Shown one piece after another: positions 5,332-26,319 of a DNA stretch of 64,000 nt; within the stretch, counting starts at the first letter, position 1; each line of letters opens with the position of its first letter. The notes beneath the pieces are model-generated. The model had not been told where the DNA came from, did no database searches, and saw nothing but the letters and a program-made list of their open reading frames with translations. Origin of the DNA: Solitalea lacus. GTDB lineage: Bacteria > Bacteroidota > Bacteroidia > Sphingobacteriales > Sphingobacteriaceae. The DNA is taken from positions 2,654,200-2,718,199 of the forward strand of contig NZ_CP091740.1 in NCBI RefSeq assembly GCF_022014595.1, given 5' to 3'. The translations under genes were made by a program, and so were the position numbers.

Positions 5332-5353
5332 TAGTTTATAGTTATTATTGCAG

Positions 5354-5971
5354 ATGCAGTTTTCATCGAAATTACTAGAAGAAGCCGTTAATGAGTTTGC
5401 AAAGCTCCCTGGAATAGGTTCAAAAACAGCTTTGCGATTAGTGTTGCACCTTTTAAACCAATCTTCAGATGAAGTGGAACGCTTTGGAACTACCATGATA
5501 AAACTGCGTCAGAATATACGGTTTTGCTCTAACTGCGGTAATATTTCTGACACTCCACAATGTGAAATATGCACTCATCCTAAACGAGACCGCTCAATTA
5601 TTTGCGTGGTTGAAGATAGTAGAGATGTTATGGCCGTTGAGAATACGCAGCAATTTAATGGCTTGTATCATGTACTAAACGGTTTAATTTCTCCAATGGA
5701 GGGTATAGGACCTTCTGACTTAAATATTAGCAAATTGCTTGAACGAGCAGCTTCTGGAGAGCCAAAAGAGGTAATTTTAGCGCTTAATCCCACAATGGAA
5801 GGTGACACGACTATTTTCTACCTTTATAAAAAACTAAAAGACTTTAATATAAAAATCACTACTATTGCCAGAGGGATTTCATTTGGCGGCGAAATAGAAT
5901 ATGCGGATGAGCTTACACTTGGTAGGTCAATTACCACCCGAGTTACCTATGAAAACACCTTACTGAAATGA
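5354..5971 (+). CDS. recR: Recombination mediator RecR
   Basis: A 205-residue RecR, the RecFOR-pathway protein that helps load RecA onto gapped DNA. It has the N-terminal helix-hairpin-helix (KLPGIGSKTALRL), a four-cysteine zinc finger (Cys58, 61, 70, 73) and a TOPRIM domain (IICVVEDSRDVMAVE and NPTMEGDTT). The ATG at 5354 is preferred over a TTG two codons upstream because it gives the usual family length. Confidence 0.95.
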   Translation: MQFSSKLLEEAVNEFAKLPGIGSKTALRLVLHLLNQSSDEVERFGTTMIKLRQNIRFCSNCGNISDTPQCEICTHPKRDRSIICVVEDSRDVMAVENTQQFNGLYHVLNGLISPMEGIGPSDLNISKLLERAASGEPKEVILALNPTMEGDTTIFYLYKKLKDFNIKITTIARGISFGGEIEYADELTLGRSITTRVTYENTLLK

Positions 5972-8907: not shown

Positions 8908-8939
8908 TTTGCATTTAAAAAATAGAATATTCATATTTG
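8908..8939 (+). promoter_or_regulatory. Predicted promoter of the trp leader
   Basis: TTTG at 8908-8911 and CATATTTG at 8932-8939 have a 20-base spacing and match the Bacteroidetes TTTG/TAnnTTTG promoter with one mismatch. Transcription would begin near 8945, leaving only about 8 bases before the leader-peptide ATG. Confidence 0.55.
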
Positions 8940-8952
8940 GGCCAATCGAAAA

Positions 8953-9012
8953 ATGAAACAAAACGTATTAAATAACAATTGGTGGTGGCGCTGCATAAAC
9001 TGCGGACGGTAA
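8953..9012 (+). CDS. trpL: trp operon leader peptide (19 residues, Trp-Trp-Trp)
   Basis: A short frame ATG to TAA encodes MKQNVLNNNWWWRCINCGR. Three consecutive TGG codons at 8980-8988 sit 21 bases before the stop codon. It lies between a predicted promoter and a rho-independent terminator and directly precedes trpD. This is the textbook arrangement of a ribosome-mediated attenuator that senses charged tRNA-Trp. The peptide itself probably has no other job. Confidence 0.88.
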   Translation: MKQNVLNNNWWWRCINCGR

Positions 9013-9085
9013 CCTCATTGTTTTTAATAACAACACTATATCAAGATACTTTTATGAAGGGTTGCCGTTAAGGCAACCCTTTTTT
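9008..9085 (+). promoter_or_regulatory. trp attenuator: antiterminator and terminator
   Basis: The terminator stem is 9057-9066 with 9072-9081 (10 bp, 5-base loop), followed by a T run to 9085. The 5' arm GGGTTGCC (9059-9066) can instead pair along 8 bases with GGTAACCT (9008-9015), which overlaps the leader stop codon at 9010-9012. A ribosome stalled on the Trp codons leaves 9008-9015 free, so the antiterminator forms. A ribosome that reaches the stop codon covers it, so the terminator forms. The pairing is read from sequence and the mechanism is inferred. Confidence 0.82.
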
Positions 9086-9120
9086 GTTATATGTACTTAT
9101 CAACCCGAATATTTTAACGT

Positions 9121-10125
9121 ATGAAAAAAATATTAACACATTTATTTAAAGGACAAATCCTATCAAAAGAAGAATCAAAACAAATTTTGATAGAGCTCGC
9201 TAGTGGAAATTACAACGTTTCACAAATGGCCGCTTTTATGACTGTATATTGCATGAGAAGTATCACAGTTGATGAATTGGAAGGTTTCAGGGATGGTATG
9301 CTTGAGCTTTGTCTTTCGGTCAATTTACCCTCTGATCAACTTATCGACCTTTGTGGTACAGGAGGAGATGGCAAGGATACATTCAATATTTCTACACTTT
9401 CCTCATTTGTTGTTGCTGGTGCAGGATATAAAGTCGCCAAGCATGGCAATTACGGAGTTTCCTCTTCTTGTGGTTCATCAAACGTGATGGAATACCTTGG
9501 ATATCAATTCACCAATAATGAAGACACTTTGAAGAAAACTCTGGATGAAGCCAATATCTGTTTCTTACATGCGCCACTATTTCATCCGGCCATGAAAACT
9601 GTTGCGCCTATTCGTAAAGAATTGGGCGTAAAAACTTTCTTTAATATGCTAGGGCCAATGGTAAATCCAGCTAAACCTAAACACCAAATGGTAGGTGTAT
9701 TTAGTTTGGAACTGGCTCGTTTATATGCTTATCTCTACCAAAAAACAGATAAAAAATACATGATTATCCATACGCTTTCTGGTTATGATGAAGTATCACT
9801 GACTGATCCATTTAAACTATTTTCAACAACTGGGGAAGCTCTTTATACCCCCGAACACCTTGGAGGCCTGCTAAATGCAGTGGATTTGGCTGGAGGAGAC
9901 ACTGTAGAAGACTCAGCTAAAATATTTATGAATGTATTAAAAGGAGAGGGAACACAGTCTCAACAAATGGCTGTTTTAGCTAATTCAGCCTTGGCAATTC
10001 ATTGCTTAGAAGATAGGAAGTCATTAGAAGATTGCTACGAAATAGCCAAGGAATCCTTAATAAGCGGTAAAGCTTTATCGAGTTTTAATAAATTGATTGG
10101 AAATAAAGTAAGCATACCAGTATAG
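9121..10125 (+). CDS. trpD: Anthranilate phosphoribosyltransferase
   Basis: A 334-residue TrpD that joins anthranilate to PRPP in tryptophan synthesis. It shows the PRPP-binding CGTGGDG (residues 78-84), the KHGN motif (107-110) and the NMLGPMVNPA block. Length is normal for the family. It is the first structural gene after the attenuator, and trpE and trpG are not upstream. trpF starts one base after its stop codon, indicating tight coupling. Confidence 0.95.
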   Translation: MKKILTHLFKGQILSKEESKQILIELASGNYNVSQMAAFMTVYCMRSITVDELEGFRDGMLELCLSVNLPSDQLIDLCGTGGDGKDTFNISTLSSFVVAGAGYKVAKHGNYGVSSSCGSSNVMEYLGYQFTNNEDTLKKTLDEANICFLHAPLFHPAMKTVAPIRKELGVKTFFNMLGPMVNPAKPKHQMVGVFSLELARLYAYLYQKTDKKYMIIHTLSGYDEVSLTDPFKLFSTTGEALYTPEHLGGLLNAVDLAGGDTVEDSAKIFMNVLKGEGTQSQQMAVLANSALAIHCLEDRKSLEDCYEIAKESLISGKALSSFNKLIGNKVSIPV

Positions 10126-10126
10126 C

Positions 10127-10756
10127 ATGAAAATAAAAATATGCGGCATGAAATACCGCGACAACATTGAAGCCGTTGCTGCTTTACAACCCGATTATCT
10201 TGGTTTTATTTTTTACCCACAATCCCCAAGGTATGTTGATGATCTTTCGGTATTGAAAACCGTGCCTCCATCAATTAAAAAAGTAGCTGTTTTTGTTGAT
10301 GCTAACTTAGATGATGCATTGCAAATAGTGGCTGACTATGATTTTGATGCTGTTCAATTGCATGGTAACGAAAAGCCGAATTATTGTTCACAATTTAAAA
10401 CTGCAACAATTGAAGTCATTAAGGCTTTCGGGATTGATGAAAAGTTTGACTTTGGGACTTTAAAACGTTATAGAGACGCTTGCGATTCTTTTTTATTCGA
10501 CACCAAATCTCCAATGCATGGCGGTACAGGCAAATCGTTTGATTGGTCAATTTTAACTCAATATAAAGAGACTAAACCCTACTTTTTAAGCGGAGGAATA
10601 GGGGTAGACAATTTATTGGAGCTAAAACCTTTACTGGACTATGAACAAGTGCCTTACTGTATCGACTTTAACAGCAAACTTGAAACAAGCCCCGGAGTAA
10701 AAGATGTTCAAAAAGTCCAAACTATCATAACTCAATTAAAAGAATTAACAAACTAG
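10127..10756 (+). CDS. trpF: Phosphoribosylanthranilate isomerase
   Basis: A 209-residue TIM-barrel TrpF that performs the Amadori rearrangement of phosphoribosylanthranilate. The catalytic Cys6 is in KICGM and the catalytic Asp125 in FDTKSPMHGGTG. Phosphate-binding loops are present. It starts one base after trpD. The trpC gene that sits between trpD and trpF in many Bacteroidetes is absent, and TrpF is not fused to TrpC. Confidence 0.94.
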   Translation: MKIKICGMKYRDNIEAVAALQPDYLGFIFYPQSPRYVDDLSVLKTVPPSIKKVAVFVDANLDDALQIVADYDFDAVQLHGNEKPNYCSQFKTATIEVIKAFGIDEKFDFGTLKRYRDACDSFLFDTKSPMHGGTGKSFDWSILTQYKETKPYFLSGGIGVDNLLELKPLLDYEQVPYCIDFNSKLETSPGVKDVQKVQTIITQLKELTN

Positions 10757-10790: not shown

Positions 10791-11981
10791 ATGAGTACTA
10801 TAAACTATTACGTTGATGAACGAGGATATTTTGGAGATTTTGGGGGAGCATATATACCCGAAATGCTATATCCCAATGTTGAGGAACTGCGTCAAAACTA
10901 CCTTTCTATTATAAACAGCGCTGATTTTCAGCAAGAGTTTAAAAGTTTGCTGAAGGATTACGTTGGGCGGGAAACACCTCTTTTTCACGCAAAACGATTA
11001 TCCGCCCGTTATGGAACCACTATTTATCTAAAACGCGAAGATTTAAATCATACGGGAGCGCATAAGGTAAATAACACCATTGGCCAAATTCTATTGGCGG
11101 AGAAATTAGGCAAAAAACGCATTATTGCCGAAACCGGTGCCGGACAGCACGGTGTAGCCACTGCAACGGTTTGTGCCTTGCGTGGTCTTGAATGTGTAGT
11201 TTACATGGGTGAAGTGGATATAAAGCGCCAGGCTCCCAATGTAGCACGGATGAAAATGTTAGGAGCAACGGTAAAAGCAGCTACTTCGGGAAGCAAAACC
11301 TTGAAAGATGCAACGAACGAGGCAATGCGAGATTGGATTAACAACCCGGTAGACACACATTATATCATCGGTTCAGTTGTGGGTCCACATCCATACCCTG
11401 ACATGGTTGCTCGCTTTCAATCGGTTATCAGTGCTGAAATAAAAACACAACTTAAAGAAAAAACAGGCACAGAATTACCTGATTATGTTCTGGCTTGTGT
11501 GGGAGGCGGAAGTAATGCAATGGGAACGTTTTATCATTTCCTGAATGATGAATCAGTACAGTTAATTGCTGTTGAAGCGGCTGGTTTAGGAGTTAATACA
11601 GGCAAGTCGGCGGCAACCACTATTTTAGGTAAAGAAGGAGTATTACACGGTAGCCGTTCAATACTTATGCAAACTGAAGACGGTCAGGTTATTGAGCCAC
11701 ACTCAATTTCTGCAGGTTTGGATTACCCTGGAATAGGACCACAGCATGCTCATTTATTTAAAACAGGCCGTAGCAAATATGTAGCAATTACCGATGACGA
11801 AGCCATGCAGGCAGCTCGATTGCTAACTCAACTAGAAGGTATTATTCCAGCCATAGAATCCTCTCATGCTTTAGCATATCTGGAAAAGATGAAATTCAAT
11901 GGCAATGAGAAGGTGGTGGTATGCCTATCCGGACGTGGCGATAAAGATCTTCAAACATATATGGATTATTTTAATTTATAA
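10791..11981 (+). CDS. trpB: Tryptophan synthase beta chain
   Basis: A 396-residue PLP enzyme that condenses indole with serine. The PLP lysine is Lys92 in HTGAHKVNN, and the phosphate-cup GGGSNAMG is present. Length and motifs match the ordinary TrpB1 type that works in an alpha2-beta2 complex with TrpA. It lies 34 bases after trpF and 24 bases before trpA. Confidence 0.96.
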
Positions 11982-12005: not shown

Positions 12006-12782
12006 ATGAACAATCGATTAATTGAACTATTCAAAAATAAAAATAAGGACCTGCTATCAGTTTATTTTACTGCCGGATACCCTCAATTAGATGATACACT
12101 AACAATTGCAAAAGCGCTGGAAAAAGCCGGAGCTGATTTTCTGGAAATAGGGTTCCCATATTCCGACCCTGTGGCCGATGGCCCAACCATTCAAAACAGT
12201 AGCCAAACTGCTTTACTAAATGGCATGAGCTTAAAAGTATTGTTTGAGCAGCTTAAAGAACTGCGTAAGCAAGTTTCTATTCCGGTCATCTTAATGGGTT
12301 ATGTTAATCCGGTTTTGCAATATGGAGTTGAGAAATTTTGTGCAGATGCGGCAAGCGTGGGTGTTGACGGAGTTATTGTTCCTGACTTACCGATGTATGA
12401 ATACGAGGAGCTATATAAAGACGTATTTGAAAAATATAATCTTAGCAACATCTTTTTGATTACCCCCCAAAGTTCTGATGAACGAATTAGAAAAATTGAT
12501 CATTTAACAGAAGGATTTATTTATGCTTTATCTTCTTCATCCACAACCGGTAAGCAGTTAGCCCTTGAAGATGCACAAACAGATGCGTATTTTAAACGTT
12601 TAAAAGAATTGAAGCTTAAAAATCCATTAATGATTGGTTTTGGTATTAATGACAAGCATAGTTTTCAAAAAGCATGCTCTGCCGCCAGTGGAGCCATTAT
12701 TGGTAGTGCTTTTGTGAAAACACTCGACAAAGTTGTTAATGCAACGCAGATCGACAGTTTTATTGCATCAATCAAACAATAA
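12006..12782 (+). CDS. trpA: Tryptophan synthase alpha chain
   Basis: A 258-residue TIM barrel that cleaves indole-3-glycerol phosphate to indole, which is passed to TrpB. The catalytic pair is intact: Glu47 in FLEIGFPYSDP and Asp58 in VADGP, equivalent to Glu49 and Asp60 of the enteric enzyme. It is the last biosynthetic gene of the block. nhaA follows after 8 bases. Confidence 0.95.
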   Translation: MNNRLIELFKNKNKDLLSVYFTAGYPQLDDTLTIAKALEKAGADFLEIGFPYSDPVADGPTIQNSSQTALLNGMSLKVLFEQLKELRKQVSIPVILMGYVNPVLQYGVEKFCADAASVGVDGVIVPDLPMYEYEELYKDVFEKYNLSNIFLITPQSSDERIRKIDHLTEGFIYALSSSSTTGKQLALEDAQTDAYFKRLKELKLKNPLMIGFGINDKHSFQKACSAASGAIIGSAFVKTLDKVVNATQIDSFIASIKQ

Positions 12783-26203: not shown

Positions 26204-26319
26204 TTCTTATCCAGAAAGACGGAGGGACAGGCCCTGTGAAGTCTTAGCAACCTTAATGATCTTGCATTAAAAGGTGCTAATTCCTGTGACACAATTAGTT
26301 GATGTCATGAAGATAAGCT
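26204..26319 (+). ncRNA. SAM-I (S-box) riboswitch
   Basis: The closing P1 stem is CTTATC (26206-26211) with GATAAG (26312-26317). Inside are the conserved S-box words CAGAAAGACGGAGGGAC, GGCCCTGTGAAG, CTTAGCAACC and AAGGTGCTAATTCCTG in the right order. S-box RNAs bind S-adenosylmethionine and lower methionine-pathway expression. The next gene is homoserine dehydrogenase. I see no strong terminator between 26320 and 26476, so control could be translational or through a weak AT hairpin at 26320-26346. Confidence 0.92.

Follow-up and report, generated by a model that had tools for sequence, protein, structure and literature searches.

A predicted ribosome-mediated attenuator of trpDFBA in Solitalea lacus, with a second candidate attenuator before trpEGC

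The trp leader of Escherichia coli and other enteric bacteria carries two Trp codons and follows a logic of alternative RNA pairings designated 1:2, 2:3 and 3:4, with the stop codon of the leader placed near region 2. Within the Bacteroidetes, the Bacteroid-trp RNA (RF01692) was reported in 2010 as a probable cis-regulatory motif (Weinberg et al., PMC2864571), is labelled by Rfam as a tryptophan peptide leader, and was described in 2019 upstream of the trp operon of Flavobacterium psychrophilum, with the same logic as in E. coli (PMC6414381). Indications that amino-acid operons of this species are attenuated through leader peptides have also been published (PMC9723704). In Sinorhizobium meliloti the trpL (rnTrpL) transcript is leaderless and starts with the ATG of the leader peptide (PMC7298713). 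The available portions of PMC2965389 and PMC4833913 contain nothing on trp leaders of Bacteroidota, and within the open-licence literature no publication was found on leader-peptide attenuation by tryptophan in Pedobacter. Because RF01692, the F. psychrophilum attenuators and a leaderless trpL have already been published, the attenuator described here belongs to a known kind.

The locus lies in a stretch of 64,000 nucleotides of Solitalea lacus (contig NZ_CP091740.1, assembly GCF_022014595.1), referred to here as the window, with the attenuator and the trp genes on its forward (+) strand. Translation of the leader ORF at 8953..9012 yields a peptide of 19 sense codons, MKQNVLNNNWWWRCINCGR, in which codons 10-12 (8980..8988) are the three Trp codons and would serve as the sensor of charged tRNA-Trp. 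The leader stop codon (9010-9012) falls inside region 2, the 5′ arm of the antiterminator (9005..9015), which in the fold pairs with region 3, the 3′ arm (9059..9069). A long 1:2, or protector, hairpin spanning the Trp codons appears in the window fold at 8966..9029, its apical part (8989-8995/9001-9008, with A9006 bulged) lying directly 3′ of these codons, and the intrinsic terminator (3:4) occupies 9056..9085, where a stem of 11 pairs (9056-9066/9072-9082) is followed by six T (T run 9080-9085). An earlier note on this DNA had described a 19-codon leader with three TGG codons, which the translation bears out, and a terminator with a T run, which is likewise present with 11 pairs rather than 10 bp; the 8-bp pairing that it had drawn between 9008-9015 and 9059-9066, overlapping the stop codon, extends to 11 bp (9005-9015/9059-9069, three pairs being G-U), and the 1:2 hairpin at 8966-9029 had been overlooked. 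The leader stretch 8945-9095 folds at -40.9 kcal/mol, compared with -27.6 in shuffled sequences (z -3.8; none of 200 as stable).

The operon that follows the leader is trpDFBA. It consists of trpD, for anthranilate phosphoribosyltransferase (9121..10125; TIGR01245, 307.9 bits, cut-off 199), trpF, for phosphoribosylanthranilate isomerase (10127..10756; best match 174.6 bits, under the model cut-off of 215), trpB, for tryptophan synthase beta (10791..11981; TIGR00263, 593.1 bits, cut-off 392), and trpA, for tryptophan synthase alpha (12006..12782; TIGR00262, 234.2 bits, cut-off 102). When the window was scanned for other amino-acid leaders, counting only codon runs within ATG-initiated ORFs of 8-40 codons that have a terminator, the trp leader was the sole match. 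The window also holds a SAM riboswitch at 26204-26319 (81.2 bits, cmscan).

With the E. coli leader the locus shares the Trp codons, the 1:2, 2:3 and 3:4 logic and a stop codon near region 2; it differs in having three Trp codons and a predicted stretch of about 9 nt ahead of the AUG, in lacking a Shine-Dalgarno sequence, in its sequence as a whole, and in its position upstream of trpD of a split pathway. S. meliloti resembles it in carrying a leader peptide on a transcript that starts with the ATG and in the separation of trpE(G) from trpDC, but belongs to another phylum and has another sequence, and its terminated RNA acts in trans on the trpDC mRNA, whereas trpD of the window has its own attenuator. 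F. psychrophilum, with its attenuation clues and a Bacteroid-trp RNA before the trp operon, is also a species of Bacteroidota, though of another family than that of the window.

By covariance-model comparison, the closest catalogued family is RF01692. The window aligns to it end to end, with the ATG and TGG codons in register and with the same Trp-codon hairpin, but reaches only 29.8 bits against a gathering cut-off of 49 (E 0.16 in 351 bases), and a search of its own genome with RF01692 gave no match. A model termed R1, constructed from 30 trpD-type leaders of the same bacterial family (alignment A3, described below) none of which is from this genus, gives the window 78.7 bits, with a rough E of 5e-13 in 156,691 bases. 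R1 also finds all four RF01692 loci tested (L113, L114, L118 and L120, of eight fetched) at 34.5-64.7 bits, and on this evidence the window attenuator appears homologous to the catalogued members of RF01692. At E <= 0.001, RF01692 matches 28 of 201 genomes of the family under strict filters, with 9 passing the cut-off; across 395 genomes of the phylum it matches 41, of which 34 are from one other family of the class. With R1 and the same E threshold, 199 of 201 genomes of the order give a match, counted anywhere in the genome with rough E-values; this draw of genomes differs from that of the RF01692 search, includes some that supplied R1 rows, and has listed rows only from the family that the RF01692 search covered.

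The locus is best read as a classical ribosome-mediated transcription attenuator of trpDFBA with a full 1:2, 2:3 and 3:4 set, a reading to which a probability of about 0.93 is given from the sequence and its predicted folds. Conserved Trp codons, the antiterminator pairing and the terminator all point to trp attenuation by ribosome stalling, as the earlier note had proposed. When charged tRNA-Trp is ample, the ribosome would reach the stop codon at 9010-9012 and mask region 2, so that the terminator would form and transcription would end near 9085. Uncharged tRNA-Trp would make the ribosome stall at 8980-8988 and cover the 5′ side of the 1:2 hairpin, and region 2, thereby freed, would pair with region 3 before region 4 is made, permitting read-through into trpD. 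If the leader is not translated, the 1:2 hairpin would sequester region 2 and the terminator would again form. The footprint of a ribosome stalled at 8980-8988 would extend to about 8991-8999, leaving 9005-9015 free, and this geometry would fit exposure of the arm at the Trp codons and its masking at the stop codon.

The leader is widely conserved upstream of trpD. Similarity to trpD was the sole criterion in selecting 80 named loci, the best-scoring of 589 that were confirmed, with Mucilaginibacter, Pedobacter and Dyadobacter as the main genera. Of these loci, 79 carry a Trp-codon leader, and the conservation of Trp codons that the earlier note had named as a check is thus found. This count includes L010, L028 and L054 beyond the 76 loci of the main tally; the leader of L054 begins off the contig end, and the terminators of L028 and L054 were judged by eye. 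The sole exception among the 80, L071, has no Trp-codon leader in the 1,271 nt upstream of trpD. The trpD coordinates of another entry, G008:C174:1272-2264, are nearly those of L071, and the two possibly represent the same organism. In L070 and seven Dyadobacter loci (L052, L059, L064, L065, L072, L073 and L079) the leader is located 2.2-2.6 kb upstream of trpD, and in the three other genomes of the window's genus it is nearly identical to that of the window. Runs of three Trp codons occur in 106 of the 108 leaders collected. L001, a copy of the window, was set aside; L082-L109, which were chosen by RF01692 match, do not enter the 79 of 80, and are counted in the 98-leader duplex test, the 68 hairpin segments and the 93 promoter upstreams considered below.

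Pairing and covariation were counted on three alignments: A1, the Pedobacter-type group of 19 rows chosen by eye; A2, 42 rows chosen by hand; and A3, which is A2 minus the four rows of this genus, omitted deliberately, and minus L021, L036, L040, L068, L078, L088, L092 and L102, omitted by hand. Because the A3 omissions were hand-made, the full A2 was counted afterwards; in these counts the inner pairs of the window's genus are out of register and scored as unpaired. The shuffles used for covariation do not preserve kinship.

The antiterminator pairing is retained in 87.1% of 240 cells on A3 (30 leaders; slid controls 21-56%) and in 100% of 114 cells on A1 (19 leaders), so that the conservation in relatives asked of this pairing by the earlier note is seen. 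It does not covary: A3 has one double-change cell, a number reached by 203 of 500 shuffles, and A1 has none. Of the two alternative stems for which a covariance check had been suggested, the terminator covaries in relatives (see below), and the antiterminator is conserved without covariation. As a duplex, the 2:3 pairing beats at least 57 of 60 shuffles in 59 of 98 leaders; the 39 that fail include all seven Dyadobacter rows, L084, L086, L090, the L030-like group, and L105, L107 and L110 of this genus. In the window, RNA 9000-9069, which represents the state with a stalled ribosome before region 4 is made, folds into the 11-bp 2:3 pairing (-16.1 kcal/mol). RNA 9024-9090, representing a ribosome at the stop codon, folds into the terminator, as does RNA 9000-9090, and in the absence of a ribosome 1:2 forms, followed by the terminator. 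Antiterminator and terminator, which share region 3, are mutually exclusive by their pairing, and the terminator (-19.4 kcal/mol, compared with -13.9 for 2:3) is the more stable once region 4 has been made, so the switch must be kinetic, determined by the order of synthesis.

The evidence on the 1:2 hairpin bears on an alternative that the earlier note had favored, in which the system is reduced to two stems, antiterminator and terminator, that alternate without any 1:2 hairpin, no separate hairpin of this kind being needed. A ribosome at the stop codon would mask region 2 anyway, and a crude 1:2 duplex test against shuffles gave a mean z of -0.3 over 98 leaders, with 4 of 98 passing; this null result is perhaps due to A+T-rich shuffles pairing about equally well, and hairpin folding and pair counts were used in its place. 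RNAalifold on 43 leaders (<85% identity; the seven Dyadobacter rows and L070 set aside beforehand) recovered the terminator only. Hairpin lengths differ between groups, and hence one set of columns cannot hold the pairs of every leader.

Against the two-stem alternative, 33 of 68 distinct segments have a hairpin after the Trp codons whose stability exceeds that of 95% of shuffles, where about 3 would be expected, the apical hairpin of the window alone being borderline (p = 0.05). On A2, 78.2% of its 294 cells are paired (slid controls 27-44%), and it has 37 double-change cells compared with 14.3 in shuffles (reached by 0 of 500; slid controls 0-21), the number of pairs with double changes being unremarkable (reached by 357 of 500 shuffles). 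Hairpin and terminator together on A3 are paired in 91.9% of 480 cells (slid controls 27.5-54%) and show 28 double changes, compared with 7.5 in shuffles (0 of 500) and 2-7 in slid controls; here the count of double-change pairs is reached by 17 of 500 shuffles. For the 1:2 domain and terminator on A1 the corresponding values are 92.9% of 550 cells (slid controls 37-48%) and 13 double changes versus 5.4 in shuffles (0 of 500) and none in slid controls, with the count of double-change pairs reached by 24 of 500 shuffles. In these Pedobacter-type leaders of A1 the Trp codons can pair with region 2, the antiterminator arm, in a helix (columns 29-44/50-64) that reaches 99.2% pairing; 8 of its 13 pairs are invariant and one shows a double change. 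For the lower 1:2 helix the paired share falls to 75.2% of cells, two of its pairs having double changes. The compensatory changes in the hairpin, the whole 1:2 domain found in Pedobacter-type leaders and in the window fold, and the presence of the long hairpin in the RF01692 model as well make the two-stem version highly unlikely, and, with this hairpin conserved and covarying, neither statement of the earlier note on this point is supported.

The remaining explanations were considered and rejected. One is that the product of the leader ORF is a small protein with an independent role and that the hairpin simply terminates an upstream transcript. This has a precedent in kind in peTrpL of S. 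meliloti, trans action being possible both for leader peptides and for terminated attenuator RNAs (PMC7298713). The gene upstream of the leader, however, is on the opposite strand and points away from it, and the peptide varies among relatives apart from the Trp run and frequent preceding Asn codons even as the RNA pairing is kept, so that both the independent small protein and the upstream-gene terminator are extremely improbable. A leader of the T-box or TRAP type, sensing tRNA or a protein and having no translated peptide, is barely credible here, for although both types regulate trp genes elsewhere, cmscan of the window at gathering thresholds returned the SAM riboswitch and tRNA only, with no T-box, and neither type would need Trp codons in frame with a start codon and conserved in nearly all loci.

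Attenuation by a translating ribosome raises the matter of how the leader is initiated. Absence of Shine-Dalgarno sequences is normal in the phylum Bacteroidota. The window has a putative -7 promoter box, CATATTTG, at 8932..8939, which matches TAnnTTTG with one mismatch and lies 13 nt upstream of the ATG, together with a weak sequence match to a possible -33 element, TTTG, at 8908..8911; the published consensus is TTTG/TANNTTTG (PMC6847099). Published Flavobacterium data place the G of this box at -5 (F. johnsoniae, PMC6847099; also PMC9723704), hence the predicted length of the 5′ leader equals the gap minus 4, and the transcript of the window is predicted to start near 8944, which would place the start of translation about 9 nt from its 5′ end.

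Of 93 distinct upstreams, 85 have a TAnnTTTG box, one mismatch being allowed, no more than 20 nt from the leader ATG (21 expected), the eight that lack it being the seven Dyadobacter rows and L068; exact boxes number 4 of 93 (1.2 expected). Upstreams of the trpE type have the box in 26 of 26 (11.9 expected), 15 of them exact (1.0 expected). As a control, 11 of 37 long ORFs of the window have such a box, 4 of them exact. A control over 754 long ORFs was dropped in favor of these 37 on account of one recR-like gene repeated across loci. That recR-like ORF (MNFSS...), seen in 31 of the relatives' loci (among L002-L081), has an exact TAnnTTTG box 4 nt upstream of its ATG, from which a leaderless transcript is predicted; the window ORF at 5348-5971 is RecR by TIGR00615.

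Predicted 5′ leaders, 9 nt in the window, have a median of 7 nt for trpD leaders and 2 nt for trpE leaders, and are of 10 nt or less in 73 of 93 upstreams of the trpD set and in 26 of 26 of the trpE type. These lengths are predictions from promoter position with Flavobacterium as the yardstick, in which one-mismatch boxes are loose and, where several in-frame ATGs were present, the one closest to the Trp codons was taken. For comparison, 87% of F. johnsoniae transcripts have a 5′ leader of more than 10 nt (PMC6847099), and in F. psychrophilum the median is 24 with 5.5% leaderless (PMC9723704). The earlier note had regarded initiation a few bases from the transcript start, without a Shine-Dalgarno sequence, as unusual: the short distance from box to start is conserved and is indeed unusual against published Flavobacterium, but the missing Shine-Dalgarno sequence is no peculiarity within the phylum.

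In the same genome trpE, trpG and trpC are 1.6 Mb distant from trpD (trpE scoring above the PF04715 cut-off and below that of TIGR00564), and a second leader with a terminator precedes them (L135:1856-1987, at about 4,275.4 kb of C1). Its peptide, MNKINSNKFAWWRCNN (L135:1856-1906), contains two Trp codons; a one-mismatch -7 box is located 5 nt upstream of the ATG, the predicted distance between the 5′ end of the transcript and the start codon is about 1 nt, the terminator lies downstream, and the antiterminator duplex is calculated at -17.8 kcal/mol. R1 matches this leader weakly (35.2 bits), RF01692 does not match it at E <= 5, and cmscan detected no leader family in the trpE region. We infer that this weakly similar attenuator of trpEGC answers the same signal as that of trpD.

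Across the family, among the best 30 loci per gene (own genome included), a Trp-codon leader with terminator was scored at 26 of 30 trpE and 28 of 30 trpD loci. Both loci were retrieved from 23 genomes, again including S. lacus, and 20 of these carry both leaders; the other three have the trpE leader only (G018), the trpD leader only (G012) or neither (G044), in a scoring that has misses, since R1 does match G018, the genome counted as having no trpD leader. The available portions of PMC9723704 and PMC6414381 contain nothing on paired trpE and trpD attenuators, and a search of the open-licence literature, mostly by title, found no title pointing to them. What appears to be new is the second Trp attenuator before trpEGC, together with leader starts predicted about 9 nt (window) and a median of 2 nt (trpE) from the 5′ end. 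It is somewhat more probable than the contrary that, in this order, a split pathway in two operons, each with a stalling-ribosome attenuator whose peptide starts almost at the 5′ end of the RNA, constitutes a conserved near-leaderless design that brings the first ribosome onto the RNA immediately behind RNA polymerase without Shine-Dalgarno initiation.

The results suggest that the catalogued Bacteroid-trp RNA represents only a portion of a larger set of trp attenuators, most of which escape the Rfam model in this group. Paired trpE and trpD attenuators would explain the common control of a split pathway. Conservation of such attenuators implies that transcription is closely coupled to translation in a phylum lacking Shine-Dalgarno sequences, and if the near-leaderless design is true, tight coupling of the two processes operates in the Bacteroidota and is measurable there.
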